Made by a program: the position numbers and the translations under genes
Shown: in pieces, positions 4,697 to 25,957 of the stretch
Numbering within the stretch: position 1 is the stretch's first letter
Layout: each line of letters starts with the position of its first letter
Virus record (IMG/VR): IMGVR_UViG_3300027708_000063
Location: 1 to 64,000 of that record
Source of the DNA: a virus
Length of the DNA: 64,000 bases
Direction: 5' to 3' (one strand)
Notes under the pieces: model-generated
What the model was told of the DNA's origin: nothing
Databases searched by the model: none
The model's input: the letters and a program-made list of their open reading frames with translations, nothing else

Positions 4697-7600
4697 ATGG
4701 CAACAAGAATTAAACTACGCAGAGATACATCGGCAAATTGGACAACAGCAAATCCAATTTTAGCCGCAGGTGAAACTGGGTTTGAAACAGATACAAGAAT
4801 GATGAAGTTGGGCGATGGCTCAACTCATTGGGCAGACCTAAAATATGCGGTTACAGGTGATATGCGTATCAGTGGAACAACCATTGCCAGCGACACTGAT
4901 ATCAAATTCAGTTCGCATTCTGGAACACGAGAAAATTGGGCATTGACTGTAAATGCTCTAAGTAGTCCAACTGATCCTATTGAAGCATGGACAGATGCTG
5001 TGGCCTATGACAGCATGGGCAATGCCTTTGTTGCTGGTTGGTACCTTGATCAACAACCTACTACTTCAGCCAAATACAGTGGTGCATTCTTAATGAAGGT
5101 TGATCCTACTGGACAGGTATTATGGAACAACTATTACAATGAATACACCACATACGGTTGGGGTGTTAGTGTAGATCACAATGGTGACGCCATATTGATT
5201 CTAAGTGAAATTGATGGTCCAAGCAGTGACATTGTAATGATTAAAGTACATGGTACTACTGGTGTTCCTATGTGGCAGAGATATATTGCCAGCATTGGTG
5301 ACTACGATGACTTTGCTACCAGCATTGATGTTGATGCTAACAATGATATCTTTATCACAGGTTGGAGTGGTGATGATGCAGTCAATGCCGGCGATGACAC
5401 GTTCCTAATAGCCAAGATCAGCGGCATAGATGGTACTTTTAATCATGGCGGCTGGCAGAAAATGCTTCCTCCAACCCAAGGATGTAACACAGAACAAGGT
5501 TGGGGGATTGCTGTAGATCCAGCAGGCGATGTATGTATTGTAGGTAATGATTGGACAGGCGGAGATAGGTTTATTGCTGTGGTTAAACGTAATGGTACAA
5601 CTGGTGGTGTAGCATGGCAAACACGTATTCTTGATCAACTCAGTTACAATGGCAACATCTATACTAATCGGACAATATACGGTACAGATGTAAAATCAGA
5701 CAGCCAGGGTGACTTTTATGTTACATGGTGGGGAGATTGGAATGGAGACGGTCCTGGATTCGAAGGTACATTCTGCGGTGTGACCAAACTCAGCGGCACT
5801 CATGGCACCGCAATGTGGAGTCGTCAAATTGGATTCCCTGACTACCTAAGTGTTTCAGGTTCCGTGATCTGCGACAGCGATGACAACATCTATGTACATA
5901 GCAGTATTGAATCTTATCAAGCCAGAGGCGTTCCAGATAGTGGATTTAATTCTGTTATAGTTAAATTCAACGCACAAGGTACAGCGGTTTGGAAACGTAT
6001 CCTGCATAGAGAACAATACGCTACATTTAGTAGTGTAGTTCCAGCACCATATAGTCCGGTTGGATTACCAGGCGGCCAAACAGTGGCAGTTAATGATGAA
6101 TACTTGTTGATCGGTGGCACACAATTTATTACCGACGATTATGAGGAGGATCAAAATTGGTACAATCAACCATTCTTGGTACAGGTAGATAAAGATGGCA
6201 CAGAGTTTTCCGTAGATGGGTGGCATTTTAAAGATACTCCACATCTTGAAGTTGCTCTTGTAACTCCGGTAATTGATAATCAAAATTTCTTTGATGATGT
6301 AACAGCAGTTCCTGGTACATTGACCAATGAGAATGCCGTTGATGTATTCTATCAACCCAACATGGATACCACTGATCTAAGTTATAGAATCATGGACCGT
6401 GCAGAGACCATGACCTTTGATGGCGGCAAACTGACATTGCCAAAGGGTGGATCAATTGATGTGGCCCGTGAGAAAATTGGATATATCACTAGCGTGGGTA
6501 ATTTTGATGGCACAGAGGGCGGCAACAATGACGGCGATGTGTGGTTCAACGGTGTAGTTAGGGATGCTCAAGGTGGCAGTTATGCTGTTGGTGCTTGGCA
6601 TGATTACAATTCATTTAATGAAGGTCCAAGTGACTATAATATTCCATTAACCGTCAAGTTTGACGATATGGGACAGGTTGTATGGCAAGCCAGTGACACA
6701 TTGGATTACTGGTCTGAGGCTCTTGATGTTATGATTGACCCAGTGACCAATAATCCTGTGGTGCTGAGTGGTGATAATGTTCAAGATGGCAGCGAAGGCT
6801 TCACAGTTAAAACATTAGATGCCAACAGCGGTCTTGTTATAGGTGATGTTACCCATGTACAGGACGCAAGTGGGTTCCAACAATATGTATGGTCTCGTAA
6901 CCTTGCTCTAATGAGCGATGGTACTCCTGTCGTAGTGGGCTATATCAACAACAATACTGATGACTACCTAAATGTAACCAATGGTGGTGCTGGTCTAACT
7001 GGCAGTAACAGCAGTGATACATTGGTTATACCCAAGAGCGTATTCAATCATGGTCGTTATCCAATTACTAATGGACGATGGTATATGAGCAATACAAGTC
7101 CAAGTTTAAACTCATCTATTGTCGGAGTTAATTCCTTTAACAATGATGGATCTGGATTTACTGCTACAAATGTAAGCAGTACTGGATCAGATGCTACATT
7201 TAATATTAATATTGCTCCAGCAACAGGCGTATATGCTATAACAGTGGTCAGTGGCGGAACCAATTATCTCAATGGTGATACACTATCTATTCCTACACTA
7301 CAGTTCCTGGGTGTAGCAGGACAAGGTGATATTGCTGTAACTGTTACTACCAATGGTATGGGAATGGTAACAACTGCTACAACCACTATCACTAGCACTT
7401 GGGCTAATATCCAGTTAATAATTAATAGCCCCTACAATTTTACCACATCCACTAGTACATTAAAAGTCTATGAAAATACCAACAATGACGGATTTATCTG
7501 GACACCAAACTGGAACACGGCCATTGGCGGATCAACTGGTACAGATGGTTTCTACGCATTGGCCATAGACACGGATGATAATGTTATTGTTGGTGGATAC

Positions 7601-8824
7601 TATGAAGATACTGGATTGCCACAAACTGTTCAAGGACCTCCAGCTAATGTGACATGGGATCAGACCAGTATGTTGGTCAAATATTCCAGCACTGGAACAC
7701 AGCAGTGGTCGTTATGTTTAGATGGCACAGAAGGTTATGGAACTGTAACAGGTATTGTAACAGATCCTGACAACAATATCTATGCCATGAAACAAAATAG
7801 CGGTAGTTCTAATTATCTAATGAAATTAGATGCAGGTGGTAATATGTTATGGCAAGTCAATATAGGATATGATCGATATTTCAACGGCGGCGATCACGGC
7901 ATTGCCATAGACAGCGATCGTAATATCTTAATTGGCGGCCAGTACTACGGTGACCTATTGTTTAACGATGAACACAACGGTAATGATGGTATCCTACTCA
8001 ACAAGTTTGACACAGATGGTAACTTGCTATGGACCAGACTAATATATAGTAGAGTTAATGATATTCGCCAGGGCCGAAACGATGAGTATCGCAACACCAT
8101 TGACATCCACGGTGATAGATTCAGTGTAATTGGATACAGCAAGGCGGTGGGCAACGACGGTTATCAAGGTTTCTACGCCGACTTACCATTAGATGGCAGC
8201 GGCACGGGTAACTACAATGACTATATATACGAACAGGTTGAACTGCCAATCGATCGTACCACAACAGGTACAATAGTCACAGCATTTGTAACAGAAACAA
8301 AACCACACGCATTTACAGTAACTAATGAAGCAAATGTATTGACTATCTATGCTGATAGACAGACCAAGACGGAAACTGTTTATGAGGACATGGGTGGTGA
8401 AATTACTTCTGTTAGCAAGATTGTATTTGAAGACGGTACAGAGCAAACATCAAGTGCTCAAGATATTCCTCAAGTGGATATAAGCCGTGTTAATGGTAAC
8501 AGCGATTATATTTTACGAATGGAAGATCGCGGACATCATGTGTACAGTGGTATATACTGGAGTTGGTCATATGTCCGAGTTCCAAGAAACAGTGATGTGC
8601 CATTCCCAATAGGTACTGCTATCACTATTGTAAGCGGTGACTATGATGTGGTAATTGGCCCCCAACACGCCGGCGATACAAGTGTTTATGGTGCCGGACA
8701 AGGCAACGACAATCAAGGATGGTGGATACCTGGTAGATCAATGGCCACATTGATCAAGATTGAACAGGATGTTTGGATGCTGGCAGGTGCCGGACTAGGC
8801 ACTGGAAGATACTGGAGTCCTTAA
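4697..8824 (+). CDS. Tail fibre with Mtd-like N-terminus and SBBP-type beta-propeller
   Basis: 1375 residues, preceded by GGAG. Residues 1-52 (RIKLRRDTSANWTTANPILAAGETGFETDT...LGDGSTHW) match the N-terminal attachment domain of major tropism determinant-type and related fibre proteins. Residues ~90-520 and again ~600-1130 contain blade-like repeats of the pattern A-D--GN-FVAGW...LMKVDPTGQVLW, as in SBBP beta-propellers. The C-terminus (from ~1200) ends in an Asp/Gly/Trp-rich domain (GQGNDNQGWWIPGRSMATLIK...W). It probably trimerises on the tail and presents propellers for host binding. No reverse transcriptase or variable repeat that would suggest a diversity-generating element was seen. Confidence 0.8.
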   Translation: MATRIKLRRDTSANWTTANPILAAGETGFETDTRMMKLGDGSTHWADLKYAVTGDMRISGTTIASDTDIKFSSHSGTRENWALTVNALSSPTDPIEAWTDAVAYDSMGNAFVAGWYLDQQPTTSAKYSGAFLMKVDPTGQVLWNNYYNEYTTYGWGVSVDHNGDAILILSEIDGPSSDIVMIKVHGTTGVPMWQRYIASIGDYDDFATSIDVDANNDIFITGWSGDDAVNAGDDTFLIAKISGIDGTFNHGGWQKMLPPTQGCNTEQGWGIAVDPAGDVCIVGNDWTGGDRFIAVVKRNGTTGGVAWQTRILDQLSYNGNIYTNRTIYGTDVKSDSQGDFYVTWWGDWNGDGPGFEGTFCGVTKLSGTHGTAMWSRQIGFPDYLSVSGSVICDSDDNIYVHSSIESYQARGVPDSGFNSVIVKFNAQGTAVWKRILHREQYATFSSVVPAPYSPVGLPGGQTVAVNDEYLLIGGTQFITDDYEEDQNWYNQPFLVQVDKDGTEFSVDGWHFKDTPHLEVALVTPVIDNQNFFDDVTAVPGTLTNENAVDVFYQPNMDTTDLSYRIMDRAETMTFDGGKLTLPKGGSIDVAREKIGYITSVGNFDGTEGGNNDGDVWFNGVVRDAQGGSYAVGAWHDYNSFNEGPSDYNIPLTVKFDDMGQVVWQASDTLDYWSEALDVMIDPVTNNPVVLSGDNVQDGSEGFTVKTLDANSGLVIGDVTHVQDASGFQQYVWSRNLALMSDGTPVVVGYINNNTDDYLNVTNGGAGLTGSNSSDTLVIPKSVFNHGRYPITNGRWYMSNTSPSLNSSIVGVNSFNNDGSGFTATNVSSTGSDATFNINIAPATGVYAITVVSGGTNYLNGDTLSIPTLQFLGVAGQGDIAVTVTTNGMGMVTTATTTITSTWANIQLIINSPYNFTTSTSTLKVYENTNNDGFIWTPNWNTAIGGSTGTDGFYALAIDTDDNVIVGGYYEDTGLPQTVQGPPANVTWDQTSMLVKYSSTGTQQWSLCLDGTEGYGTVTGIVTDPDNNIYAMKQNSGSSNYLMKLDAGGNMLWQVNIGYDRYFNGGDHGIAIDSDRNILIGGQYYGDLLFNDEHNGNDGILLNKFDTDGNLLWTRLIYSRVNDIRQGRNDEYRNTIDIHGDRFSVIGYSKAVGNDGYQGFYADLPLDGSGTGNYNDYIYEQVELPIDRTTTGTIVTAFVTETKPHAFTVTNEANVLTIYADRQTKTETVYEDMGGEITSVSKIVFEDGTEQTSSAQDIPQVDISRVNGNSDYILRMEDRGHHVYSGIYWSWSYVRVPRNSDVPFPIGTAITIVSGDYDVVIGPQHAGDTSVYGAGQGNDNQGWWIPGRSMATLIKIEQDVWMLAGAGLGTGRYWSP

Positions 8825-11610: not shown

Positions 11611-12399
11611 ATGCCACGTCCAACTAAAACATCAATACCCAAGTATCACTGGCGTCCAGATCGTCCTGATGCTAGAGATCATATCTATGATCCTGCCAAG
11701 CTAGGTGCTGCACCTCCTACACTGGCCGCAGCAGTTGATCTAAGACCTAAGTGTAGTGCTATTGAAGATCAAGGTCAGTTAGGCAGTTGTACTGGTAATG
11801 CCATTGCTGGATTGATTGAATACTTGGACCGCAAGGCAAACAAGAATTTAGAAGTCAGCCGTTTGTTTATCTATTATCAAGAAAGACTGTTAGAAGGTAC
11901 AGTGAACTACGATGCTGGAGCATACATTCGCGACGGTATTAAAGCAGTTAATATATACGGAGCACCATTGGAAAGTCTATGGCCCTATACTATTGGTAGA
12001 TTTGCCACACGCCCAACTACTGCGGCATATACAGATGCTGCCAAACGCAAGGCAGGTGCTTACCAACGTGTGACCAACTTTGCCGGAGTTAAGACAGCAT
12101 TGGCACAGGGCTATCCAGTAGTAGTAGGTTTCACTGTGTATGAGAGTTTTGAAGGGAACATTAACAACACAACAGGTATGATGCCTTATCCAAATACTGC
12201 TACTGAACAGGTGTTGGGCGGACATGCTGTGGCCATCGTAGGCTACAATGATAATCTAAATGGTGGACGATTTATCTGCCGTAATAGTTGGAGCACACGG
12301 TGGGGTGATCGTGGATATTTTTACATGCCGTATGATGTAATAAGGAATACTGCCATGAGTAGTGATTTCTGGATTATTACATCTGTCACGAATCCTTAA
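11611..12399 (+). CDS. Papain-like (C1A) cysteine peptidase
   Basis: 262 residues with a good ribosome site (AAGGA). All papain-family catalytic positions are visible: oxyanion Gln54 and nucleophile Cys60 in EDQGQLGSCTGNA, His205 in GGHAVAIVGY, Asn225 in CRNSWSTRWGDRGYF. There is no signal peptide or obvious inhibitory propeptide, so it would act in the cytoplasm or within the virion. It starts 12 bases after the Hint-domain fibre gene. One reading is that it matures tail proteins; another is that it is carried in the particle and attacks host surface proteins. Family assignment is firm, the target unknown. Confidence 0.88.
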   Translation: MPRPTKTSIPKYHWRPDRPDARDHIYDPAKLGAAPPTLAAAVDLRPKCSAIEDQGQLGSCTGNAIAGLIEYLDRKANKNLEVSRLFIYYQERLLEGTVNYDAGAYIRDGIKAVNIYGAPLESLWPYTIGRFATRPTTAAYTDAAKRKAGAYQRVTNFAGVKTALAQGYPVVVGFTVYESFEGNINNTTGMMPYPNTATEQVLGGHAVAIVGYNDNLNGGRFICRNSWSTRWGDRGYFYMPYDVIRNTAMSSDFWIITSVTNP

Positions 12400-12429: not shown

Positions 12430-13185
12430 ATGACAACTACACATTGGGCCGCCCGCAGCCTTCATTGGAAAACAATGGGGCCACCATTACAACCAAATCA
12501 AGAAATCGTTGACTGTTTTCACAGCATAATTCCCTGCTCAAAACACATAATGCTAATGGGTGTAACCCCGCAGATTGCCAATGCCTATGCCAATGTTACC
12601 GCAGTGGACCGTGAGCCAGCCATGATTGCCAATGTGTGGCCTGGTGATACAGCAACCAAAAGAGCAATCAATGCCAACTGGCTATCTGTAGATTTACCAG
12701 CAGAATCATTTGACGGGGTAATAGGTGATGGCAGCATTAATATGTTAGACATCAGTGATGTGTCCTTCATGTTCAAACGAGCAATATCAATGCTAAAACC
12801 CGGGGGCGTATTTGCCTGCAGAATGTTCACTCGACCCGACACGCCTGTCAAATTAGATCAACTGTATCAAGAAGCCGTAACTCCCACAGTTAACTTTTCC
12901 GCATATAGAAGACTGTTGCCCATGTATCTAGCAGAAGTTCACGGACCAGTTGTACCAGTTAGTCAAATATCAACTCTGTTTGATCAACTGTGCCCTGACA
13001 GGAGTCAGGTGTCTTGGACTGCTGAACAGTTGTCCAAAATAGATGACTATCGTAATTCAGATACAACTACTTGGTTTCCAACTCGTGATGAGATATTAAA
13101 GTTGTCTCCTAAAGGAAGTAGATTCGTTGATGTGGGCACTTATGACATTGCTGATACCTGTCCTATACTGACTTTTACCAAATGA
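12430..13185 (+). CDS. Class I SAM-dependent methyltransferase
   Basis: 251 residues. Rossmann-type features are visible: an acidic residue after strand 2 (ANVTAVDREPAM), NWLSVDLPAESFDGVIGDGSINML (motifs II/III) and the LKPGGVFACRMF strand typical of class I methyltransferases. The usual GxGxG glycine loop is weak (LMGVTPQIA), so cofactor binding should not be assumed. The stop overlaps the start of the next gene by four bases (ATGA), implying coupled translation with the adenylate-forming enzyme. The substrate may be a small carboxylate or glycan precursor made by its partner; this is inference. Confidence 0.75.
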   Translation: MTTTHWAARSLHWKTMGPPLQPNQEIVDCFHSIIPCSKHIMLMGVTPQIANAYANVTAVDREPAMIANVWPGDTATKRAINANWLSVDLPAESFDGVIGDGSINMLDISDVSFMFKRAISMLKPGGVFACRMFTRPDTPVKLDQLYQEAVTPTVNFSAYRRLLPMYLAEVHGPVVPVSQISTLFDQLCPDRSQVSWTAEQLSKIDDYRNSDTTTWFPTRDEILKLSPKGSRFVDVGTYDIADTCPILTFTK

Positions 13186-14477
13186 AAGAACAATTAGAAC
13201 ATCTTATTGAGCACCTAGATAAGACACAGTGGTGGCCTTTGGCTAAACTGGAATATGCACAAGAGAAAGAACTGGTCAATGTGGTCAAACATCATGCTGC
13301 CCATACTGAACATTTTAAACAGAGATTGCAAGAGCAGGGCCTGACTGCTCTTGATGTTATTACGCTAGGAGGCTTGGCCCAATTAAAGCCCTTTACCAAA
13401 CGCGATATACAAACAGCAGGCGATGCATTTAACTCTGCGGTAGTCCCTCCTTCTCACTTGCCTGTATCAATATCGCAAAGCAGTGGCAGTACTGGACAGC
13501 CGGTAACAGTAAAACGAACCATGATCAGTGAACTGTTTTGGGGAGCATTGGCTGTGCGTGATCATCAATGGTATAATAGGGATTACACGGGCAAGCTGAC
13601 TGCTATCCGTGTGTTACCGGAATATAAACAAGTTGATCAATGGGGGCCTCCTGTGTCCTTGTTGTATGGTAGCGGTGCCGCCCAGGCTATTCCGGTAAGC
13701 ACAGATATAAAACAACAGGTGCAATTGCTAAAAGAATTCCAACCCAACATCATTATAGTTCATGCAGGTGCCTTGGCAGCAATAGTGGAAGAATGGGCTA
13801 GGGATGGATACTCACTGACCAACCTTGAACATATTAAGAATGTAGGGGACACTGTGAGACAGCCACTCCGTGATCGTGTGCGTGAAGTTACAGGGCTAGA
13901 AATAGAAGACAACTACAGCAGCAGTGAAGTAGGATGTATGGCTATACAATGTCCAACAAGCGGCCTATATCATATAATGAGCGAAAGCCTTATAGTAGAA
14001 ATACTTGACCAGAACGGGCAATCCTGTAAAGAGGGTGAAGTCGGCCGTGTGGTAGTTACAGATTTGTACAATGCGGCCAGTCCTATTATACGCTATGACT
14101 TGGGTGATCACGCAGAAGTTGGCAGCACCTGTACATGTGGTAGGCATTTACCTACTATCAAAAGAGTATTAGGTAGAGATCGCAATTTGCTAACACGTCC
14201 GGACGGAACCCGCTTTTGGCCACCTGGTGGTAGAAAAACATTGGAAAAATACAATGTTACTCAATGGCAAGTCGTACAATATGCTGTTGATGATTTGGAA
14301 TATCGAATTGTTAGGGATGAACCTCTTACCAAAGAACAACACACACAACTGACCGCGGAAGTTAACAGTATGTTAAAATTCCCGGGCACTATTAGATTGG
14401 TAGAAATGACTGAAATACCGTTAGGTAAGAGCGGAAAGTATGAAGAAAGTATATGTTTAATCAAGGAAACACAATGA
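13182..14477 (+). CDS. PaaK/CapK-like adenylate-forming (acyl-CoA ligase superfamily) enzyme
   Basis: 431 residues. ANL-superfamily motifs are in order: A3 P-loop QSSGSTGQPVTVKRT (~98-111), A5 DNYSSSEVG (~243-251), A7 RYDLGDH (~303), A8 region RVLGRDRNLL, and the A10 lysine loop PLGKSGKYE (~416-424). Length and the CTCGRHLP segment fit the phenylacetate-CoA ligase/CapK branch. It should activate a carboxylate with ATP. Whether CoA or another acceptor follows is unknown. It is translationally coupled to the upstream methyltransferase and overlaps the membrane-protein gene downstream, so the three look like one unit. This is unusual in a phage tail region. Confidence 0.82.
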   Translation: MKEQLEHLIEHLDKTQWWPLAKLEYAQEKELVNVVKHHAAHTEHFKQRLQEQGLTALDVITLGGLAQLKPFTKRDIQTAGDAFNSAVVPPSHLPVSISQSSGSTGQPVTVKRTMISELFWGALAVRDHQWYNRDYTGKLTAIRVLPEYKQVDQWGPPVSLLYGSGAAQAIPVSTDIKQQVQLLKEFQPNIIIVHAGALAAIVEEWARDGYSLTNLEHIKNVGDTVRQPLRDRVREVTGLEIEDNYSSSEVGCMAIQCPTSGLYHIMSESLIVEILDQNGQSCKEGEVGRVVVTDLYNAASPIIRYDLGDHAEVGSTCTCGRHLPTIKRVLGRDRNLLTRPDGTRFWPPGGRKTLEKYNVTQWQVVQYAVDDLEYRIVRDEPLTKEQHTQLTAEVNSMLKFPGTIRLVEMTEIPLGKSGKYEESICLIKETQ

Positions 14478-14935
14478 CAGTAATAACAAAAGAAACACAC
14501 CTGCGCACAGTTGCTAAAACTGTCATATATAGGATTTTATCCATAATAGTTACAATGGCGTTGACATTGGTATTTGGGGGTAGTCCTCTACAAGCTGTGC
14601 AGTTTGGCCTAGTATCGCTGATCATCGGTTCGAGTCACTATTATATCTATGATAGAATTTGGCAGTTTATATCTTGGCAAAGATCTGCTGATGGCCGCGA
14701 CACTAAATTTCGTAGTGTAGTCAAAGCTGTAGTATATAGGATCACAGTGATATTAGTGATCATGGTCACAGCCCGTATGATATTTGCAGACAATAATCTA
14801 ACAGCATTTTTAGTAGCTACTACAAAGTTTGCTATAAACACTGCTACCTATTATGTATTAGAACGCATCTTTAACCGTACCAATTGGGGATTAGCTAACA
14901 AACCTGCAGACACCGGGCTAAATACAGAATCATAA
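14474..14935 (+). CDS. DUF2061-type tandem-repeat membrane protein
   Basis: 153 residues from the ATG at 14474 (AAGGA eight bases upstream; an ATG at 14453 lies inside the previous gene). Two DUF2061-like halves are visible: TVAKTVIYRILSIIVTMALT...YYIYDRIW (~11-68) and SVVKAVVYRITVILVIMVTA...YYVLERIFNRTNWG (~84-140). Each has a YR motif and two hydrophobic helices, about four membrane segments in total, so it should sit in the inner membrane. DUF2061 has no well-defined biochemical function. It is probably co-expressed with the adenylating enzyme and may localise or transport its product; that link is inferred. Confidence 0.78.
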   Translation: MTVITKETHLRTVAKTVIYRILSIIVTMALTLVFGGSPLQAVQFGLVSLIIGSSHYYIYDRIWQFISWQRSADGRDTKFRSVVKAVVYRITVILVIMVTARMIFADNNLTAFLVATTKFAINTATYYVLERIFNRTNWGLANKPADTGLNTES

Positions 14936-16141: not shown

Positions 16142-18850
16142 ATGAAGCTAGCTATTATTGACATTATTGGTATTCCATATGACGGTACAACCGTTTTTAA
16201 ACAAGGCCTTGGTGGCAGCGAAAGTGCTGTGACACTAATGGGAAAAGAATTAAGTGATTTGGGTTTTGAAGTCACTGTTTTTAACAACTGTATTGATCAT
16301 GCTGCTCCGGGTGTATATGATGGTGTAGCATATAGACACCTAAATGATCTAGCACAAGATCATTACTTCGATATCGTTATAAGCTCTAGAACGGTAATTC
16401 CATTTACTGATCCCGTTGATCTCTCAAAACTAAATGATACTAGGGCTATTCCATTCCAGAATTTAGATCTATACAACAGAATATTAGCCAAAGCCAAAAT
16501 GCGTATCCTATGGATGCACGACACATTTTGTCTAGGTGATAACTTAATTGAAGAACTTGCCCTTGCTGATAGAATCACTGATATCTTTACACTTAGTGAT
16601 TTCCATCTAACTTATGTTGCCAACTGTAATCATGGCAAGAGACGAAATTTCGAAGTTTTAAAACGTAAAATGTTCATAACACGAAATGGTGTAAGAATAT
16701 ATAATAAAAACGTAGATGTTTCCGCCAAAGACAAAAACTTATTTGTCTATAATGCAAGCGTTACCAAGGGAATGATTCCTTTAGTAAAACTAATTTGGCC
16801 ACATGTTAAGTATCACATACCTGAAGCTAAATTAAAAGTCATAGGAGGCTATTATAGATTTAGTATCAATGGCGAACCTGACCAGCAAGAAAAAGATTGG
16901 CGTGAGATGGCTGCTGATCCTCAACTGGCAGCACAAGATATAGAATTCACCGGTGTCATAACACAAAAAGAAATTGCGGATATACTGACTGAAGCTAATT
17001 TCATGTTATATCCAGCGGCATTTCCAGAGACCTACGGCATTTCATCAATGGAAAGTCTATGTTATAACACACCTTTGGTAACTTGTCGATTCGGAGCACT
17101 TGAAGAAATTGCCATTGAGAATGCTTGTTATCTAATCGACTATGCTATAGAACCTAACAATCTATTTCCGGATATCAATGTACACACTCAAATTGAACAG
17201 TTTGTTAGGACTGTGGTAGAGGCATATCGTAATCCCTACTTACATCAGCAAAAACAATACTATTGTAACATTGTTAAAGACACTGCTGGATGGGACAGTG
17301 TAGCTCTACAATGGAAACAGTTAATAGTTAAACGATTGGGCCAATATTTAAAACGTGATGAATATCAAGCTGTATCTAAAATCAATCATAGAATACACAA
17401 AATCTATAACCGTAAATTTCATAACACTGTTGAACTAGAAAACTACAAGACAAATATTGAACAAGAGATCGTTGTTGTCAGTCCATTCTATAACTGTGCT
17501 GAATATATTTCACGTTGTATTGCCAGTGTATCTACACAGGACTACCATAACTACAGACACATACTGATCGACGATTGTTCTACTGATAATTCATTAGATA
17601 TAATAACAGCAGAGTTGTCAGCACTGCCCGAAGATATCATGAAAAAATATACAGTTATTTTAAATAACAACAATTTGGGTGCAGTTAAAAATCAAATAGA
17701 AAACATCAAAGCGTTGGTTAATAATGATCATGCAATCATAATGTTGCTAGATGGTGACGATAGTCTTGTAAATGATAATACAATATTCAGTTATTACAAT
17801 TCATTATATGATGGCTCTACTGAATTTGCCTATGGGTCATGCTGGAGCATGGCCGACAACATTCCTTTGATCAGTCAACCATACCCTGAACATGTAAAAC
17901 AAAATAGAGAGTATAGAAATCATCACTTTAACTGGATACTTCCCTATACACATTTGCGAACATTTAAAAAATCTTTACTGAACAATATTGATGATAGCAT
18001 GTTTAAGGACGACAGCGGCAATTGGTTTAAAGCTGGCGGTGATGGCAGTGTATTCTATGCGCTAATAGAAACTGCTGATCCTAAAAAAGTTAAATGCCTC
18101 CAAGACATAGTATACAACTATAATGATATAAATCCATTGAATGACTACAAGGTCAATGCAGCGGAACAAAATATCAATGCATACACGATTGTTAAAAAAG
18201 CAAACATATTTAAAAAAAAGATACTGATAGCGATTCCAACGGCTCGTAATATTGAGCCGGAGACTTTTAAAAGTATCTATGATTTGATAATCCCTGAAGG
18301 TTACGAAGCTACATTCCAGTACTTCTATGGGTACAATATTGATCAGGTAAGAAACTTAATTGCCGACTGGGTGGTCAACGGATTTGATTACTTGTTTAGT
18401 GTTGATAGCGATATCAGTTTCCCATCTAATACATTGGAAAGATTGTTAGCGCATGATGTAGATGTTGTAAGTGGACTATATGTACAGCGAAAACCTGGAT
18501 TACATATCTTGGAAATCTACGAGCCAACTGAACACGGTGGCGTAACCAATATGCCTTATCCCAAACTCAAAGGACGTCGCCTAGTTGAAGTTGCAGGCTG
18601 CGGATTTGGCTGTGCATTGGTCAAGGCAGCAGTCTTACGTGACATAGGGTATCCGCAATTTAAGTATTACAGTGCTATTGATCATAGAAATACTATATCG
18701 GAAGATGTTGATTTCTGTAAGAAAGCCCGAGACAAAGGGTTTAAAATTTGGGCTGATCCCAACGTGCTATGCAGCCACACTGGCAGTTTTACCTTTAATG
18801 TAGACACTACTATTCCTGCACTAGAAGATGTTAATGCCACTGGTGCATGA
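16142..18850 (+). CDS. Multidomain glycosyltransferase (GT4-like + two GT2-like domains)
   Basis: 902 residues. Residues ~1-400 form a GT4/GT-B domain: GLGGSES near the N-terminus and FPETYGISSMESL with the paired Glu residues of retaining GT4 enzymes. Residues ~441-690 form a GT2/GT-A domain (VVVSPFYNCAEYISRCIASVSTQDY, IDDCSTDNS, DxD-type LLDGDDS). Residues ~692-895 form a second GT-A domain (KILIAIPTARNIE, FSVDSDISFP, SEDVDFCKKARDKGFKIWADP). Three sugar-transfer modules in one phage protein suggest assembly of an oligosaccharide on fibres, DNA or the host envelope. The acceptor is unknown. It has its own leaderless promoter, separating it from the fibre genes. Confidence 0.85.
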   Translation: MKLAIIDIIGIPYDGTTVFKQGLGGSESAVTLMGKELSDLGFEVTVFNNCIDHAAPGVYDGVAYRHLNDLAQDHYFDIVISSRTVIPFTDPVDLSKLNDTRAIPFQNLDLYNRILAKAKMRILWMHDTFCLGDNLIEELALADRITDIFTLSDFHLTYVANCNHGKRRNFEVLKRKMFITRNGVRIYNKNVDVSAKDKNLFVYNASVTKGMIPLVKLIWPHVKYHIPEAKLKVIGGYYRFSINGEPDQQEKDWREMAADPQLAAQDIEFTGVITQKEIADILTEANFMLYPAAFPETYGISSMESLCYNTPLVTCRFGALEEIAIENACYLIDYAIEPNNLFPDINVHTQIEQFVRTVVEAYRNPYLHQQKQYYCNIVKDTAGWDSVALQWKQLIVKRLGQYLKRDEYQAVSKINHRIHKIYNRKFHNTVELENYKTNIEQEIVVVSPFYNCAEYISRCIASVSTQDYHNYRHILIDDCSTDNSLDIITAELSALPEDIMKKYTVILNNNNLGAVKNQIENIKALVNNDHAIIMLLDGDDSLVNDNTIFSYYNSLYDGSTEFAYGSCWSMADNIPLISQPYPEHVKQNREYRNHHFNWILPYTHLRTFKKSLLNNIDDSMFKDDSGNWFKAGGDGSVFYALIETADPKKVKCLQDIVYNYNDINPLNDYKVNAAEQNINAYTIVKKANIFKKKILIAIPTARNIEPETFKSIYDLIIPEGYEATFQYFYGYNIDQVRNLIADWVVNGFDYLFSVDSDISFPSNTLERLLAHDVDVVSGLYVQRKPGLHILEIYEPTEHGGVTNMPYPKLKGRRLVEVAGCGFGCALVKAAVLRDIGYPQFKYYSAIDHRNTISEDVDFCKKARDKGFKIWADPNVLCSHTGSFTFNVDTTIPALEDVNATGA

Positions 18851-18938: not shown

Positions 18939-19655
18939 ATGAAAAAACTCTTTATTACTCTAATACTGACTTTAGCCAGTGTTTCTGGATTTGCACAAAT
19001 CAATCAACAGTGCCCACAATTTACAGTAAACGGCACACCGCAATATCAGGCCCGTCCCGGAGATCAAGAAATTTGTCATATGAATTATGCTGTAATTCAT
19101 CGTTGCGATGTCAAAGCACCTGTGGCAGTATTTGAACATTTAACAGTGGCAACAATGACAGGTCCTGCAAAACGTAAGGACAATTTCCACCCAGATGCAG
19201 CAGTTGCTCCACAGTGTAGTGCCAGTCTAGCAGACTATGCCACAGTGGGTAGTACTCATGATCGTGGTCATATGAGCCCTGCTGGTAATAATACGCTTAA
19301 TGATGCTGTCATGAGCGAAAGTTTTAACCTAAGTAACATGGTAGCGCAAATCGCAAATAACAACAGAGGAATTTGGAAACAGGTTGAGACATATGAAAGA
19401 CAGTGGGCAATGGCCCCTGGTACAGACTTTTATATTATCTCTGGAGGTATCTTTGATCAAGGACATCCTGTAACTGGTAACGGATTAGGAATTCCTACTC
19501 GTTTATACAAAGTTATCATTGAGAAAAATAGTCAAAAAGTACAGGCATATCTAATGCCAAATGCAGCATTACCAGTAAAAGATTTGCCTAACTATCAGGT
19601 GCCGATGGCTGCTATCGAGCAAGCAACAGGCATGAAATTTAATCTAGGTCAATAA
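18939..19655 (+). CDS. Secreted DNA/RNA non-specific endonuclease (DRGH/NUC family)
   Basis: 238 residues with ribosome site AAGGTGA. The N-terminus is a clear Sec signal peptide (KKLFITLILTLASVSGFA, cleavage before QINQQ). The catalytic motif DRGHMSPAGN near residues 109-118 is the signature of the Serratia nuclease family (His general base, Asn metal ligand). Several Cys (C24, C47, C57, C91) could form disulfides in the periplasm. It could degrade host or competing DNA in the periplasm, scavenge nucleotides after lysis, or act against superinfecting phage DNA. Family and export are well supported, the role is not. Confidence 0.9.
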   Translation: MKKLFITLILTLASVSGFAQINQQCPQFTVNGTPQYQARPGDQEICHMNYAVIHRCDVKAPVAVFEHLTVATMTGPAKRKDNFHPDAAVAPQCSASLADYATVGSTHDRGHMSPAGNNTLNDAVMSESFNLSNMVAQIANNNRGIWKQVETYERQWAMAPGTDFYIISGGIFDQGHPVTGNGLGIPTRLYKVIIEKNSQKVQAYLMPNAALPVKDLPNYQVPMAAIEQATGMKFNLGQ

Positions 19656-20610: not shown

Positions 20611-21033
20611 ATGCCTATTCAAAAAATAAAGTCCGGCAGAATTATTACTGTACCAGTAACTGAATATATTGGCCAGTCTGGCACGATTTTTTATGACGAA
20701 GAAATTGGAGAATTGAGATTATCAAATGGAATCACTCCAGGCGGTCGACCAATTTATGCAAATAGCACAGGCACTAATACGGGTACTAATTCTGGAAATG
20801 TTGTTGCCAATGCATTTAAAACACTGGTAGTTTCTGGACAACCTCCTCTAGTTGCAACGGGATCAGATACTTTACAATTGGTAGCTGGCGCAGGCATTAT
20901 ATTAGAAACTTCAGCTAATGCTAGTCCTTACAAACAGTTAACTATTCGATCAAACAATCTTGGAAACTTAGATGGCGGTACACCTGGCACAGTGTATGGT
21001 GGTCTTGATGTAATTGATGGCGGCGGCATATAA
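20611..21033 (+). CDS. Small tail-fibre accessory protein
   Basis: 140 residues. The N-terminal half (SGTIFYDEEIGELRLSNGITPGGRPI) is the short beta motif that opens many phage fibre proteins; the second half (LQLVAGAGIILETSANASPYKQLTIRS) is a beta-rich linker. It sits two bases before the large fibre gene at 21035 and was probably duplicated from a fibre N-terminal domain. Likely virion component; no specific function recognised. Confidence 0.6.
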   Translation: MPIQKIKSGRIITVPVTEYIGQSGTIFYDEEIGELRLSNGITPGGRPIYANSTGTNTGTNSGNVVANAFKTLVVSGQPPLVATGSDTLQLVAGAGIILETSANASPYKQLTIRSNNLGNLDGGTPGTVYGGLDVIDGGGI

Positions 21034-21034
21034 A

Positions 21035-24000
21035 ATGGCAGTAAGAATACAAATTCGTCGAGGTACAGAAACTAATTGGACATCACTGAATCCATTATTG
21101 GCCGAGGGAGAATTAGGTGTTGAATTAGATACCGGCAGATTTAAAATTGGTAATGGATTAAATTACTGGAATCAGATTGAATACGCTAACGCAATAAGTA
21201 AGTTACATAGCTTATTTGATGTTTCAGTTATTGACCCAAATAATAATGACTTATTAATTTATGATTTAGCAACAGACAAGTGGGTTTCACGACCGGCAAT
21301 TTTAGCATCAACGACAGTTTCGGGCACGGTCAAGATTGGGTCAAATATCAGTGTTGCTGACGATGGTACAATATCAGTAACTGCACCGTATTCATTAATC
21401 ACTGCTACTTCAAATATATTAGGCGGAGTTAAGATCGGTAATGGTATTAGTATTACTGACAACGGCACAATATCTTTCAATACATCAACATTAGTTGCCA
21501 ATGCAGTCACTGCCACTACTGCTACCAATGCGGCATATGCCTACTCATTCAATACATCAACATTAGTTGCCAATGCAGTCACTGCCACTACTGCTACCAA
21601 TGCGGCATATGCCTACTCATTCAATACATCAACATTAGTTGCCAATGCCGTAAATGCAGTCACTGCTACCAATGCGGCATATGCCTACTCATTCAATACA
21701 TCAACATTAGTTGCCAATGCCGTAAATGCAGTAAATGCAGTCACTGCCACCAATGCGGCATATGCCTACTCATTCAATACATCAACATTAGTTGCCAATG
21801 CCGTAAATGCAGTAAATGCAGTCACTGCCACCAATGCGGCATATGCATATAGTTTTAATACAAGTACATTAGTTGCCAATGCAATATCAACAATTAATTT
21901 AAATGGCGGAATAGTCACGGCTACTGCTATAATTGTAACCGGCACACAAACAAGCACTAGTTCATTTAGTAGTAATGCATTGTATGTTGTTGGCGGTATT
22001 GGAGGTAATAGTGGATTTAACATTAATGGTGACGGTTACCTGCATGGTAACTTAACTGTTAGTGGTTACATTACTGGTACCAATGTAACGCTGAATATCT
22101 TAAGTGCCAACAGCGCGACCTTCTACGGTGATGCTACAGGGGCCGGAGCATTGTATGCAGGTGTATTAGGATTTACACAATTTCCGCAGACAATGGCGCA
22201 GTTCTCGGGTGATGCTAACAACTACATGGAAGTCAACGTTCAGAACGTTAATGCTGGTAATCAAGCCAGTACAGATATTGTTGCTAGTTCAGATAGCGTT
22301 ACATCTAGCAACGGCTTCATTGATATGGGCATTACCAGCAGTAGTTGGGATGGTACACAACCCGACAGTTTTGGTAATAATCTAGGACCAAACGATGGTT
22401 ATATATTAGTCGGTGCTAATACATCACCAGGATTAGGCGATCTAGCATTGGGTACCCTAGGTGCAGGCACCACCGTTAAGATTATTGTAGCCGGAACTAA
22501 TACTAACTCTTTAACAGCAGTGTTTAATACTGCAACTACACGATCTATCTCAACTACAACAGGCGCATTGGTTGTATATGGTGGAGTCGGTGTCGGCGGG
22601 GCATTATACGCAGGTGGCGGAATTAGTGGAAACTTAATCGGCGGTTCCACTGGTACATTGATATATCAGAGCAGTACTTCTACAACAGCATTTTTAACTG
22701 TGGGCACTGTTGGACAAATTTTATCAGTAATTAATGGCATACCGGCCTGGATCTCAACTGGATCATTAACAGCAGGTCTTGCAACAACTGCCTCATACGC
22801 ACTGTCATTCAATACCGGTACATTGGTTGCCAATGCAGTATCAGCTACAACGGCAAGTTTTGCTACTACCAGTGGATATGCTCTAAGTTTCAATACCAGC
22901 ACATTAGTTGCCAATGCAGTATCAGCTACAACATCAAACTATGCCACTACCAGTGGATATGCTATAAGTTTCAATACCAGCACATTAGTTGCCAATGCAG
23001 TATCAGCTACAACGGCAAGTTTTGCTACTACCAGTGGATACGCACTGTCATTCAATACTGGTACATTGGTTGCCAATGCAGTAAGTGCTGTCACTGCTAC
23101 CACAGCTACAACCGTTGCAGGCGGAACTGCTGGTCAAATTCTGTTTCAAACTGCAACTGGTGCTACGGCATTTATTAGCACAGGTACTGCTGGTAATATA
23201 TTGGTAAGCAACGGAACAAATGCTCCTACATATAATAATACACTGGCACTAACCAGCTTAACCAGTGCCACATCAACTCAAACTGGAGCATTACAAGTTG
23301 TTGGTGGGGTAGGTATTGGTGGCGACTTGTACATTGGCGGAAACAGTTACATTCAAAAGATCAATATCACTGCCAGTTCTGATTCTGTTGCAGCTTGGTT
23401 ATATGACAGTACAGCAACTTATACATCAACTGTCACTAACCAAGACATTTTCTTTAAGCCAGACGGTACTAAAATGTTTGGCGTATCGCCTAACGCTGTT
23501 TTTCAATGGTCATTGAGTACTCCTTGGACTTTAACACCTGCAACAGTTACATCGGGCACAACATATTCAGTAGCAACAGTTGATACTTCAGTTAATGGGC
23601 TTACTTTTAGCCCAGATGGTACCAGTATGGTTCTTATTGGTAACACTGCGGTGGTTAACGCTACTTTTGGTATACTTGCTGGCGAAGATAGGGCTTATTA
23701 TTTTACATTGGCAACCCCGTGGGATCCAACTAGTGCTACCCTGGCAGGAACAATAAGATTTGCCATTAGTGATCAAGGAATTCCAAACACGGAATCCACT
23801 CCTACTGCCTGTGCCTATGATAACACTGGTGGAAATTTTTATGTAATAGGTACTACGGTACGTAGGGTATATCAATATACCTTATCCACACCGTATGTTG
23901 TTAGTACCAGCACTGCGGTATATTCCAAACAATATATCACAGCTGAAGATACCAGCCCGCAAGGTTTAAGTTTCAACTATACCGGCTCAAGAATGTATAT

Positions 24001-25957
24001 TCTGGGAGCAACCAATGACAACGTATACGAATATAGATTAAGTACGCCGTGGGACGTTAGTACTGCGGTATATTACGACAAATATTTTATTGGTATACAG
24101 AACGGGTCCATGTTGGGTCTTTATCTAAACACTACTGCAACCAATTATGTGTTTATGGCCGGCAGCGCGGCCATTTATCGTTACCGTACTGACACACAGG
24201 CATTATACATTAATCCAGAAACAACTAGTAGTGATATTATTTTAGGCGGTAATATTAGAATTAAAGGCTCCGCTAACAGTGGTATATTGGTTGTTGATTC
24301 AACCGTTTTCTCATTCGGTACTAGCGGATTTGTTTCATACAACAATGTGCTTGCTGCTGGTCAAAGTGGTGTTACTGGCGGTGTTTTTACTGGTATAAGC
24401 ACTGGTGGCCTAAACATTTATACCGGCCAATCGTCGGGTGCGTTGGTAGTTGGTGGTACAGCAGCCACCGGTAACATAACAATTGGCCAGTCAACTGCTG
24501 CCCAAGCAGTGGGTATTGCTTCTGGTGCTACTGCCTCAGCCTCTACTAAAACTGTCAACATTGGCACTGGTGGTACTGCTGGATCCACTACCAACATAAA
24601 CATTGGCCCGGTGCTTGGTTCAGGAACCACAACAGTTAACAACGGATTGTCATTTGCCGGTTCGTCAAACACTCCCTTATATATGGGAGCTAGTTATACT
24701 GCTAACGTACCGTCATTCATTAACGCAGTTGGTACATTGGTTGGCACAACAACTACCAATAACATCTATGCGTTCAACTATCAGCATAACCTAGCACCAA
24801 TTAGCACTGCCACTATTGCCAATTACTATGGTCAGTTGTTCATACCAACATTAAGCAATACTGCAACCTACGCCAATCTGTACGGAGTATATGCCCGTAT
24901 TGATATGAGTGCTGCTTCAACTAGCGGTAGTGTTTCTCAGTGGATTGGTTTTAGTAGTGAAAATCCTAGTAGAAACGCCGCCGCTGATGTGAGATTTACC
25001 AGCCATATTGGATTTAGGGCCGCTGACCCTAGCGGCATTACTGCCACAAACGTATATGGTTTTTACAGCCAAATTGCTGCCGGCACAAATAGATATAATA
25101 TATATGCTATTGGCAGTGCATTTAATTATTTCCAAGGTAACGTTGGAATAGGATCAGGCGCAGCCGGTGGAGCATACAAACTTGATATTGGTAGTGGTGG
25201 TGCAATTAGATTCCAGTCTACTGCAACAGTTACTGATACGACTAATGCTACATCAACTTTTACAGGTGCATTGACCGTAGTTGGTGGTGTTGGTATTGGC
25301 GGCGATTTATATGGAGGTGGAACCATACAGGCGCCCAAACATGTAGTGAGCGGATCATACAGTGCTAACGATTGGGGCAGCACAGGTACAGGATTAGTTG
25401 TGGCAGCATCAACCTATACAAACTTGACCAGTAGCGGCACTGTTGCAACAAGTTATATAAACGCATTTGGAATCCCCACAATAGTGTCTACAACTGCTAC
25501 TACCATTACTGGTGCTGCTACTGTATATATAGCAGGTGTACCAATTGCTGGAACTAACACTACTATTAGCAATGCCTATTCCCTACGTGTACAAGGTGGA
25601 ACGGCAAACTTTGGAGCCGCAGTTCAAGCGGCCAACTTTACCATTCAAGGTACTGGCGGTCTAGGAACCTCTAACCAACTAGTGGTCCCCATTGTCAATA
25701 CATATGCTACAACCGTAAACTTTGCCGGCAGTGCCACCACTGTTACTGTTGGAGCAACAACTGGCACAACTACTTTCAACTCAACTACAACTTCAATAAG
25801 TACCACTACCGGCGCTGTACAAATACGTGGCGGTGTTGGTGTTGCAGACAGTGTCTATGTTGGCAACAGAGTGGGGTTTGTTAATACAAGTAATGTTAGT
25901 GTAGTTTATCAATACTATAACGCTACAACCAATAGTTTAGATACGGTGTTTGGTTAA
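21035..25957 (+). CDS. Very large repeat-built tail fibre protein
   Basis: 1640 residues from the ATG at 21035; an upstream TTG at 21014 is inside the previous gene. It opens with an Mtd-like attachment motif (VRIQIRRGTETNWTSLNPLLAEGELGVELDT). Two repeat classes follow: 24-26-residue FNTSTLVANAVTATTATNAAYAYS shaft units, and the STTTGALVV-GGVGIGGDLYVGG cassette at least four times. A beta-propeller-like region (~790-1050: FSPDGTSMVLIG..., FNYTGSRMYILG, YEYRLSTPWDVSTAVYY) may be the receptor-contact part. The stop overlaps the next ATG by one base. Probably a long trimeric tail fibre. Confidence 0.82.
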   Translation: MAVRIQIRRGTETNWTSLNPLLAEGELGVELDTGRFKIGNGLNYWNQIEYANAISKLHSLFDVSVIDPNNNDLLIYDLATDKWVSRPAILASTTVSGTVKIGSNISVADDGTISVTAPYSLITATSNILGGVKIGNGISITDNGTISFNTSTLVANAVTATTATNAAYAYSFNTSTLVANAVTATTATNAAYAYSFNTSTLVANAVNAVTATNAAYAYSFNTSTLVANAVNAVNAVTATNAAYAYSFNTSTLVANAVNAVNAVTATNAAYAYSFNTSTLVANAISTINLNGGIVTATAIIVTGTQTSTSSFSSNALYVVGGIGGNSGFNINGDGYLHGNLTVSGYITGTNVTLNILSANSATFYGDATGAGALYAGVLGFTQFPQTMAQFSGDANNYMEVNVQNVNAGNQASTDIVASSDSVTSSNGFIDMGITSSSWDGTQPDSFGNNLGPNDGYILVGANTSPGLGDLALGTLGAGTTVKIIVAGTNTNSLTAVFNTATTRSISTTTGALVVYGGVGVGGALYAGGGISGNLIGGSTGTLIYQSSTSTTAFLTVGTVGQILSVINGIPAWISTGSLTAGLATTASYALSFNTGTLVANAVSATTASFATTSGYALSFNTSTLVANAVSATTSNYATTSGYAISFNTSTLVANAVSATTASFATTSGYALSFNTGTLVANAVSAVTATTATTVAGGTAGQILFQTATGATAFISTGTAGNILVSNGTNAPTYNNTLALTSLTSATSTQTGALQVVGGVGIGGDLYIGGNSYIQKINITASSDSVAAWLYDSTATYTSTVTNQDIFFKPDGTKMFGVSPNAVFQWSLSTPWTLTPATVTSGTTYSVATVDTSVNGLTFSPDGTSMVLIGNTAVVNATFGILAGEDRAYYFTLATPWDPTSATLAGTIRFAISDQGIPNTESTPTACAYDNTGGNFYVIGTTVRRVYQYTLSTPYVVSTSTAVYSKQYITAEDTSPQGLSFNYTGSRMYILGATNDNVYEYRLSTPWDVSTAVYYDKYFIGIQNGSMLGLYLNTTATNYVFMAGSAAIYRYRTDTQALYINPETTSSDIILGGNIRIKGSANSGILVVDSTVFSFGTSGFVSYNNVLAAGQSGVTGGVFTGISTGGLNIYTGQSSGALVVGGTAATGNITIGQSTAAQAVGIASGATASASTKTVNIGTGGTAGSTTNINIGPVLGSGTTTVNNGLSFAGSSNTPLYMGASYTANVPSFINAVGTLVGTTTTNNIYAFNYQHNLAPISTATIANYYGQLFIPTLSNTATYANLYGVYARIDMSAASTSGSVSQWIGFSSENPSRNAAADVRFTSHIGFRAADPSGITATNVYGFYSQIAAGTNRYNIYAIGSAFNYFQGNVGIGSGAAGGAYKLDIGSGGAIRFQSTATVTDTTNATSTFTGALTVVGGVGIGGDLYGGGTIQAPKHVVSGSYSANDWGSTGTGLVVAASTYTNLTSSGTVATSYINAFGIPTIVSTTATTITGAATVYIAGVPIAGTNTTISNAYSLRVQGGTANFGAAVQAANFTIQGTGGLGTSNQLVVPIVNTYATTVNFAGSATTVTVGATTGTTTFNSTTTSISTTTGAVQIRGGVGVADSVYVGNRVGFVNTSNVSVVYQYYNATTNSLDTVFG
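21476..21895 (+). repeat. Tandem ~63-72-base in-frame shaft repeats
   Basis: Five near-identical copies (ttcaatacatcaacattagt...gcggcatatgcctac) plus one diverged copy, varying by insertion of the codon pair AAT-GCA-GTA. They encode FNTSTLVANAV-ATNAAYAYS. The nucleotide identity suggests recent duplication or ongoing recombination. Confidence 0.85.
22803..23090 (+). repeat. In-frame shaft repeats shared with other fibre genes
   Basis: Four ~72-base units (agtttcaataccagcacatt...gccactaccagtggatatgc) encoding FNTSTLVANAVSATT-FATTSGYALS. Closely related DNA occurs at 28196-28490 and 29522-29805 in a different gene, giving homology for exchange. Confidence 0.8.

Follow-up and report, generated by a model that had tools for sequence, protein, structure and literature searches.

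The DNA analysed here is a stretch of 64,000 nucleotides (hereafter the window), part of a 71,221-base virus record, IMG/VR IMGVR_UViG_3300027708_000063. At positions 12430-14935 it carries three ORFs with no internal stops, which encode a methyltransferase (MT), a PaaK-like adenylate-forming ligase (ACS) and a DUF2061 membrane protein (Table 1). A first-pass annotation had described these genes as a trio with overlapping junctions in a tail region, and both the junctions and the location hold up: an ATGA lies between the first two genes and an internal ATG at 14453 precedes the third, while the surroundings are tail/adhesin-like, with Mtd_N fibres and LamG proteins. Major tropism determinant N-terminal domains occur in two large fibre-like proteins, encoded at 4697-8824 and 21014-25957, and a structural gene elsewhere in the record (32784-35678) has ~40% identity to cyanomyovirus virion proteins.

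Table 1. Features of the cassette and its immediate neighbours (window coordinates)
Feature	Position	Strand	Basis and remarks
Papain-like C1 peptidase	11611..12399	+	Pfam Peptidase_C1; directly upstream of MT
MT, class I SAM-dependent methyltransferase, 251 aa	12430..13185	+	Pfam Methyltransf_11
MT SAM-binding motif I region, residues 40-53, IMLMGVTPQIANAY	12547..12588	+	Position and predicted strand 39-43
ATGA overlap, MT stop/ACS start	13182..13185	+	4-nt overlap also in 10/11 distinct viral relatives
ACS, PaaK-like adenylate-forming ligase (ANL superfamily), 431 aa	13182..14477	+	Pfam AMP-binding
ACS P-loop, residues 101-107, SGSTGQP	13482..13502	+	S101, G102, G105, P107 invariant and S103, T104 nearly so (phage and cellular alignment)
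ACS A5-type motif, residues 243-251, DNYSSSEVG	13908..13934	+	D243, Y245, S246, E249, G251 invariant
ACS A7-type motif, residues 305-309, YDLGD	14094..14108	+	Y305, D306, G308, D309 invariant
ACS CxCGR motif, residues 317-321, CTCGR	14130..14144	+	C317, C319, G320, R321 invariant
ACS C-terminal catalytic-lysine position K419, in GKYEE	14436..14438	+	G418-K419, E421-E422 invariant
ACS 3' end/slot-3 gene overlap	14453..14477	+	Candidate ATGs at 14453 and 14474
Tandem DUF2061 membrane protein	14453 (or 14474)..14935	+	Pfam DUF2061, two matched stretches
Three-domain glycosyltransferase	16142-18850		Pfam; 1.2 kb downstream of the cassette, two other ORFs between

MT scores 30.1 bits against Methyltransf_11 (cut-off 21.2) and also passes the Methyltransf_25 cut-off. 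It has a variant motif I (LMGVTPQIA), a GDGS motif and a C-terminal YDIA.TCPILTF, and the residues invariant across 20 MT sequences include P19, L42, W84, G99-D100-G101 and R131 along with G44 and T46 of the motif I region. Its AlphaFold model (pLDDT 92) matches many class I methyltransferases with E values of about 1e-9 to 1e-7, so by Pfam domain and predicted Rossmann-type fold MT belongs to the class I SAM-dependent methyltransferases. The fold matches include guanidine N-methyltransferases (CysG/BelI), Coq5 and phosphoethanolamine methyltransferases, all at 11-18% identity, and no single substrate is indicated by them.

ACS passes the Pfam AMP-binding cut-off (35.0 bits vs 29.9), and its structural-database matches are PaaK-like ligases in the PDB. 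Judged by its motifs, i.e., the P-loop, YxxxE, (Y)DxGD and a C-terminal GK lysine, it is a member of the PaaK-like branch of the ANL superfamily. With PaaK and PaaK-like ligases (e.g., PDB 4r1l, 2y27 and 6siw) it has in common the fold-defining ANL motifs, the CxCGR motif and its size, but it is remote from PaaK itself, with about 26% identity to one PaaK found. The NCBIfam DVU1553/FlxY/PaaK models give 68-109 bits, every one below its equivalog cut-off, and ACS was rejected as a PaaK equivalog (68.1 bits against TIGR02155, cut-off 646.3). Unlike PaaK-family ligases, the phage ACS is always paired with a methyltransferase.

In IMG/VR, MT is directly followed by ACS in 11 distinct viral contigs besides the window (L001, L008, L009, L012, L013, L014, L015, L016, L091, L092 and L094; L095 repeats the L094 locus). 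All are metagenomic contigs, many of them short, and the collections were scanned with short peptide patterns, so these counts are lower bounds and an absence in such a scan is no proof. The viral homologues are 35-73% (MT) and 48-57% (ACS) identical to those of the window, and the two genes are adjacent in every viral contig showing both. The dN/dS ratios (NG86) of related phage MT, ACS and TctC copies, the last described below, are about 0.04-0.17, which points to strong purifying selection on the pair. Because the homologues are always adjacent and these ratios are so low, the MT-ACS arrangement is not a chance one.

What occupies the position behind ACS (slot 3) varies. In the window, L013 and L094/L095 it is DUF2061, and a further homologue in L096 sits at a cut contig end; in the other nine relatives it is a TctC-type solute-binding protein (PF03401). 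The proposal that the trio forms one unit therefore stands in part: the trio recurs in three lineages with the ACS motifs intact and nothing degraded, but the fixed unit is the MT-ACS pair, and slot 3 is exchangeable between two unrelated envelope proteins.

The window's DUF2061 protein matches PF09834 with 52.7 bits (cut-off 23.1) and so belongs to that family. Its model has four long helices at moderate confidence, and a structural search with it matched no solved fold. PACE efflux transporters are similar in length (about 150 aa), in having four predicted helices in two repeats and in a weak profile match; however, the protein fails the PACE cut-off (18.0 bits vs 80 for NF033664) and is assigned to DUF2061 instead. 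In the literature, DUF2061 is listed only in iron-limitation, Fur-regulon and polymyxin-resistance data, with no function given.

The phage TctC copies carry PF03401, an N-terminal signal sequence evident by eye and a PFxxGGxxD signature, which has been described for TTT solute-binding proteins (PMC8556258). By these features the slot-3 TctC of the relatives is a TTT-type solute-binding protein, like TctC, Bug and TphC. It differs from TTT systems in that no TctA or TctB is evident alongside, and the window itself has no TctC. IMG/VR yielded eight close TctC matches, every one of them behind MT-ACS, and two remote ones (25% identity) outside that context. Viral contig L140 (4254-6915) lacks MT-ACS but encodes a remotely TctC-like protein that has a signal sequence; the start of a nearby gene is similar to that of a TRAP-type solute-binding protein.

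The gene junctions are conserved with some precision. The MT/ACS overlap is replaced by a 1-nt gap in one relative only (L092). In 11/11 relatives one and the same ATG opens the slot-3 gene; it lies within the ACS codons for E-E-(S/T)-I-C-L (or equivalent) and gives a 16-nt overlap with ACS, whichever of the two unrelated proteins is encoded. The window's ACS is three codons longer than those of its relatives and retains the buried ATG at 14453, which is the positional homologue of the slot-3 start in every relative. The ATG at 14474 has a better Shine-Dalgarno sequence (AAGGA) and forms a second ATGA overlap, with the ACS stop. We consider 14474 (153 aa) the more plausible start of the DUF2061 gene and 14453 (160 aa) the alternative. 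The ACS YEE codons (GARGAR) look like a Shine-Dalgarno sequence for the slot-3 gene. Overlapping frames of this kind would couple translation of MT to that of ACS, and of ACS to that of the slot-3 gene.

Maximum-likelihood trees (midpoint-rooted) place the phage MTs in one monophyletic group (support 100/99) and the phage ACSs in another (100/100), and each phage clade is sister to a chromosomal Aestuariivirgaceae MT-ACS pair (100/99 in both). The congruence of the two trees makes a single joint transfer of both genes, followed by co-inheritance, most likely. We infer the direction, from bacterium to phage, because the phage clade sits inside a wider bacterial diversity; a wider ACS tree was built in addition. 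The most likely history is thus a single acquisition of the pair from a bacterial chromosome, the nearest known chromosomal copies being those of Aestuariivirgaceae (Rhizobiales). Within the phages, a careful ACS tree gives poor resolution of how the slot-3 types branch from one another. By these signs, together with the dN/dS ratios and the virion gene on the record, the cassette would qualify as auxiliary metabolic genes, i.e., genes that appear to be cell-derived, intact and under selection in a genuine viral genome.

MT is conserved in bacterial chromosomes as well as in the 11 viral contigs. A first scan of genome contigs with the MT alignment gave no match, and the bacterial relatives came from the ACS scan. 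Chromosomal MT-ACS pairs occur in Rhizobiales and Betaproteobacteria (L017, L018, L083, L019, L020 and others), with the same families in the same order and the genes usually close or overlapping; they are direct relatives of the phage pair. In contrast to the latter, neither DUF2061 nor TctC follows them immediately in the loci examined. Among genomes sampled from two proteobacterial orders, MT was detected in 7 of 297 and in 10 of 300, the centre genomes included; it was not found in plasmids. The bacterial copies lie in varied neighbourhoods, with no pathway common to the loci examined.

Twelve further bacterial MT loci fall into two sets: six have ACS as the partner of MT, and the other six an unrelated protein of ~285 aa (ITHEFD...DANKTPG, replacing ACS beside MT in L122, L123, L124, L125, L127 and L133). 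The latter ends in FDYGKFDFV.H.G.A.LLDANKTPG, a C-terminal motif that looks ATP-grasp-like by eye, and it may possibly represent an undescribed ATP-grasp-like family; Pfam and PDB profile searches gave no confirmation of this. If the alternative partner is truly an ATP-grasp enzyme, MT would always pair with a carboxylate-activating enzyme.

The explanation we consider best, with a probability of roughly 45%, is that the cassette is an auxiliary module in which a small carboxylic acid is activated and methylated, coupled to an envelope protein. ACS would adenylate the acid and transfer the acyl group to a thiol or amine acceptor, MT would methylate the same substrate or the conjugate, and the slot-3 protein would move or capture the acid, or the product, across the host envelope during infection. 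The first-pass annotation had also suggested activation and methylation of a carboxylate, which fits both enzyme families, with the membrane protein possibly transporting or anchoring the product. We propose a carboxylate because of the ACS family, the carboxylate-binding family to which TctC belongs and, weakly, the alternative bacterial partner. Several points count against this explanation: the closest characterised relatives of both enzymes are remote, with all specific NCBIfam cut-offs missed, the bacterial copies have no shared pathway around them, DUF2061 has neither an assigned function nor a matching solved fold, and the ATP-grasp reading of the alternative partner gained no support from the profile searches. 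A more specific version is unlikely, namely a phage-borne small-molecule pathway whose own envelope protein captures or exports the carboxylic acid, whose MT-ACS pair turns it into a helpful methylated acyl conjugate (e.g., a surface modification, signal or inhibitor) and whose envelope part is swapped according to substrate.

A less probable alternative to the carboxylate module is surface or virion modification, with ACS and MT making an activated, methylated acyl group for a glycan or for the neighbouring tail adhesins. The cassette adjoins tail/adhesin genes wherever these are visible, a few bacterial copies (L019, L027, L023 and L034) adjoin glycosyltransferase-like or surface-protein genes, and the window has its own glycosyltransferase 1.2 kb downstream, from which the first-pass annotation had drawn a link to surface modification. 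That link is not sustained: no relative of the glycosyltransferase was detected in the carrier loci compared, so this gene is no evidence for a glycan pathway. In addition, a periplasmic solute-binding protein in slot 3 would be unexpected for such a pathway, and the neighbourhoods of the bacterial copies vary.

A homologue of the C1 peptidase precedes MT in L001, L009, L013, L014 (where it is a portion of a longer ORF), L092 and L094, and is absent in L015 between the tail gene and MT. In most relatives the peptidase is 68-76% identical and thus better conserved than either enzyme of the pair; a protein from a 595-kb uncultured phage (LR756511) shares 51% identity with it. Behind the glycosyltransferase lies a DNA/RNA non-specific endonuclease (phage family phrog_14168; window 18939-19655), with a 35% identical homologue also downstream in L094. 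Slot 3 is often followed by a gene for a small, outer-membrane-barrel-like protein whose signal sequence was recognised by eye (absent in the window, L094 and L015), usually so where slot 3 holds TctC, and in one carrier phage a fatty acid desaturase gene lies behind the barrel gene (L009 7086-7793).

It is also possible, though we think it rather unlikely, that slots 3-4 (TctC or DUF2061 and the barrel protein) act independently of the pair, e.g., in superinfection exclusion or nutrient capture, and owe their position to a recombination site in the tail region. Comparison of L009 3527-7023 with L016 15-3509 reveals a recombination breakpoint inside ACS: MT DNA is about 81% identical, TctC and the barrel gene 94-95%, and dS for TctC is 0.16 vs 0.80-0.90. 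Slots 3-4 thus recombine as a block, and the link of slot 3 to the pair may be due to hitch-hiking on such a segment instead of to a common pathway. However, the buried start and the overlap with ACS are precisely retained in both slot-3 types, and close TctC and DUF2061 homologues in IMG/VR were found only behind the pair, except in L096, where the contig ends. Finally, it is very improbable that ACS is a genuine phenylacetate-CoA ligase (PaaK), an auxiliary gene feeding aromatic catabolism: its closest profiles and structures are PaaK-like ligases, but its PaaK-model score is far below the cut-off, no other paa genes were recognised near the pair in the phage and bacterial loci examined and, to our knowledge, a methyltransferase partner is no part of the paa pathway.

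Neither MT nor DUF2061 has a match in 50,697 phage records, and ACS has only remote ones, including two bacterial operons that had been entered as phage. The sole annotated phage matches to ACS, from ‘Acinetobacter phage MD-2021a’, were rejected as a bacterial paa operon beside uvrB; these records (CAKLQH020000001.1 and CAKLQF020000001.1; L134) look like misfiled bacterial chromosome. A search of phage databases for the trio, as the first-pass annotation had advised, therefore yields no isolated phage in the collection searched, and besides the window the trio was found only in the IMG/VR relatives L013 and L094/L095. The same annotation knew of no characterised phage pathway of this composition, and we likewise found no published description of MT-ACS with an envelope protein in phages in full-text searches of an open-licence library. 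The nearest published item is a tctA-like domain on a SUP05 viral contig (PMC4164917). Like the cassette, it is a case of metabolic or transport genes of cellular origin carried by viral contigs; it differs in being a membrane subunit, known from a domain match only, with no enzyme pair reported alongside.

Every component of the cassette comes from a known family, and what is new is the combination: a two-enzyme core with an exchangeable envelope partner. Phages are known to borrow single metabolic genes. Here a pair has been co-inherited with its frames overlapping into an exchangeable envelope gene, which suggests that the phage runs a chemical step on a dedicated substrate. The pair also draws attention to a two-enzyme system of bacteria that is so far uncharacterised; its phage copies are a ready expression unit and offer a clue in the form of a carboxylate-binding partner.
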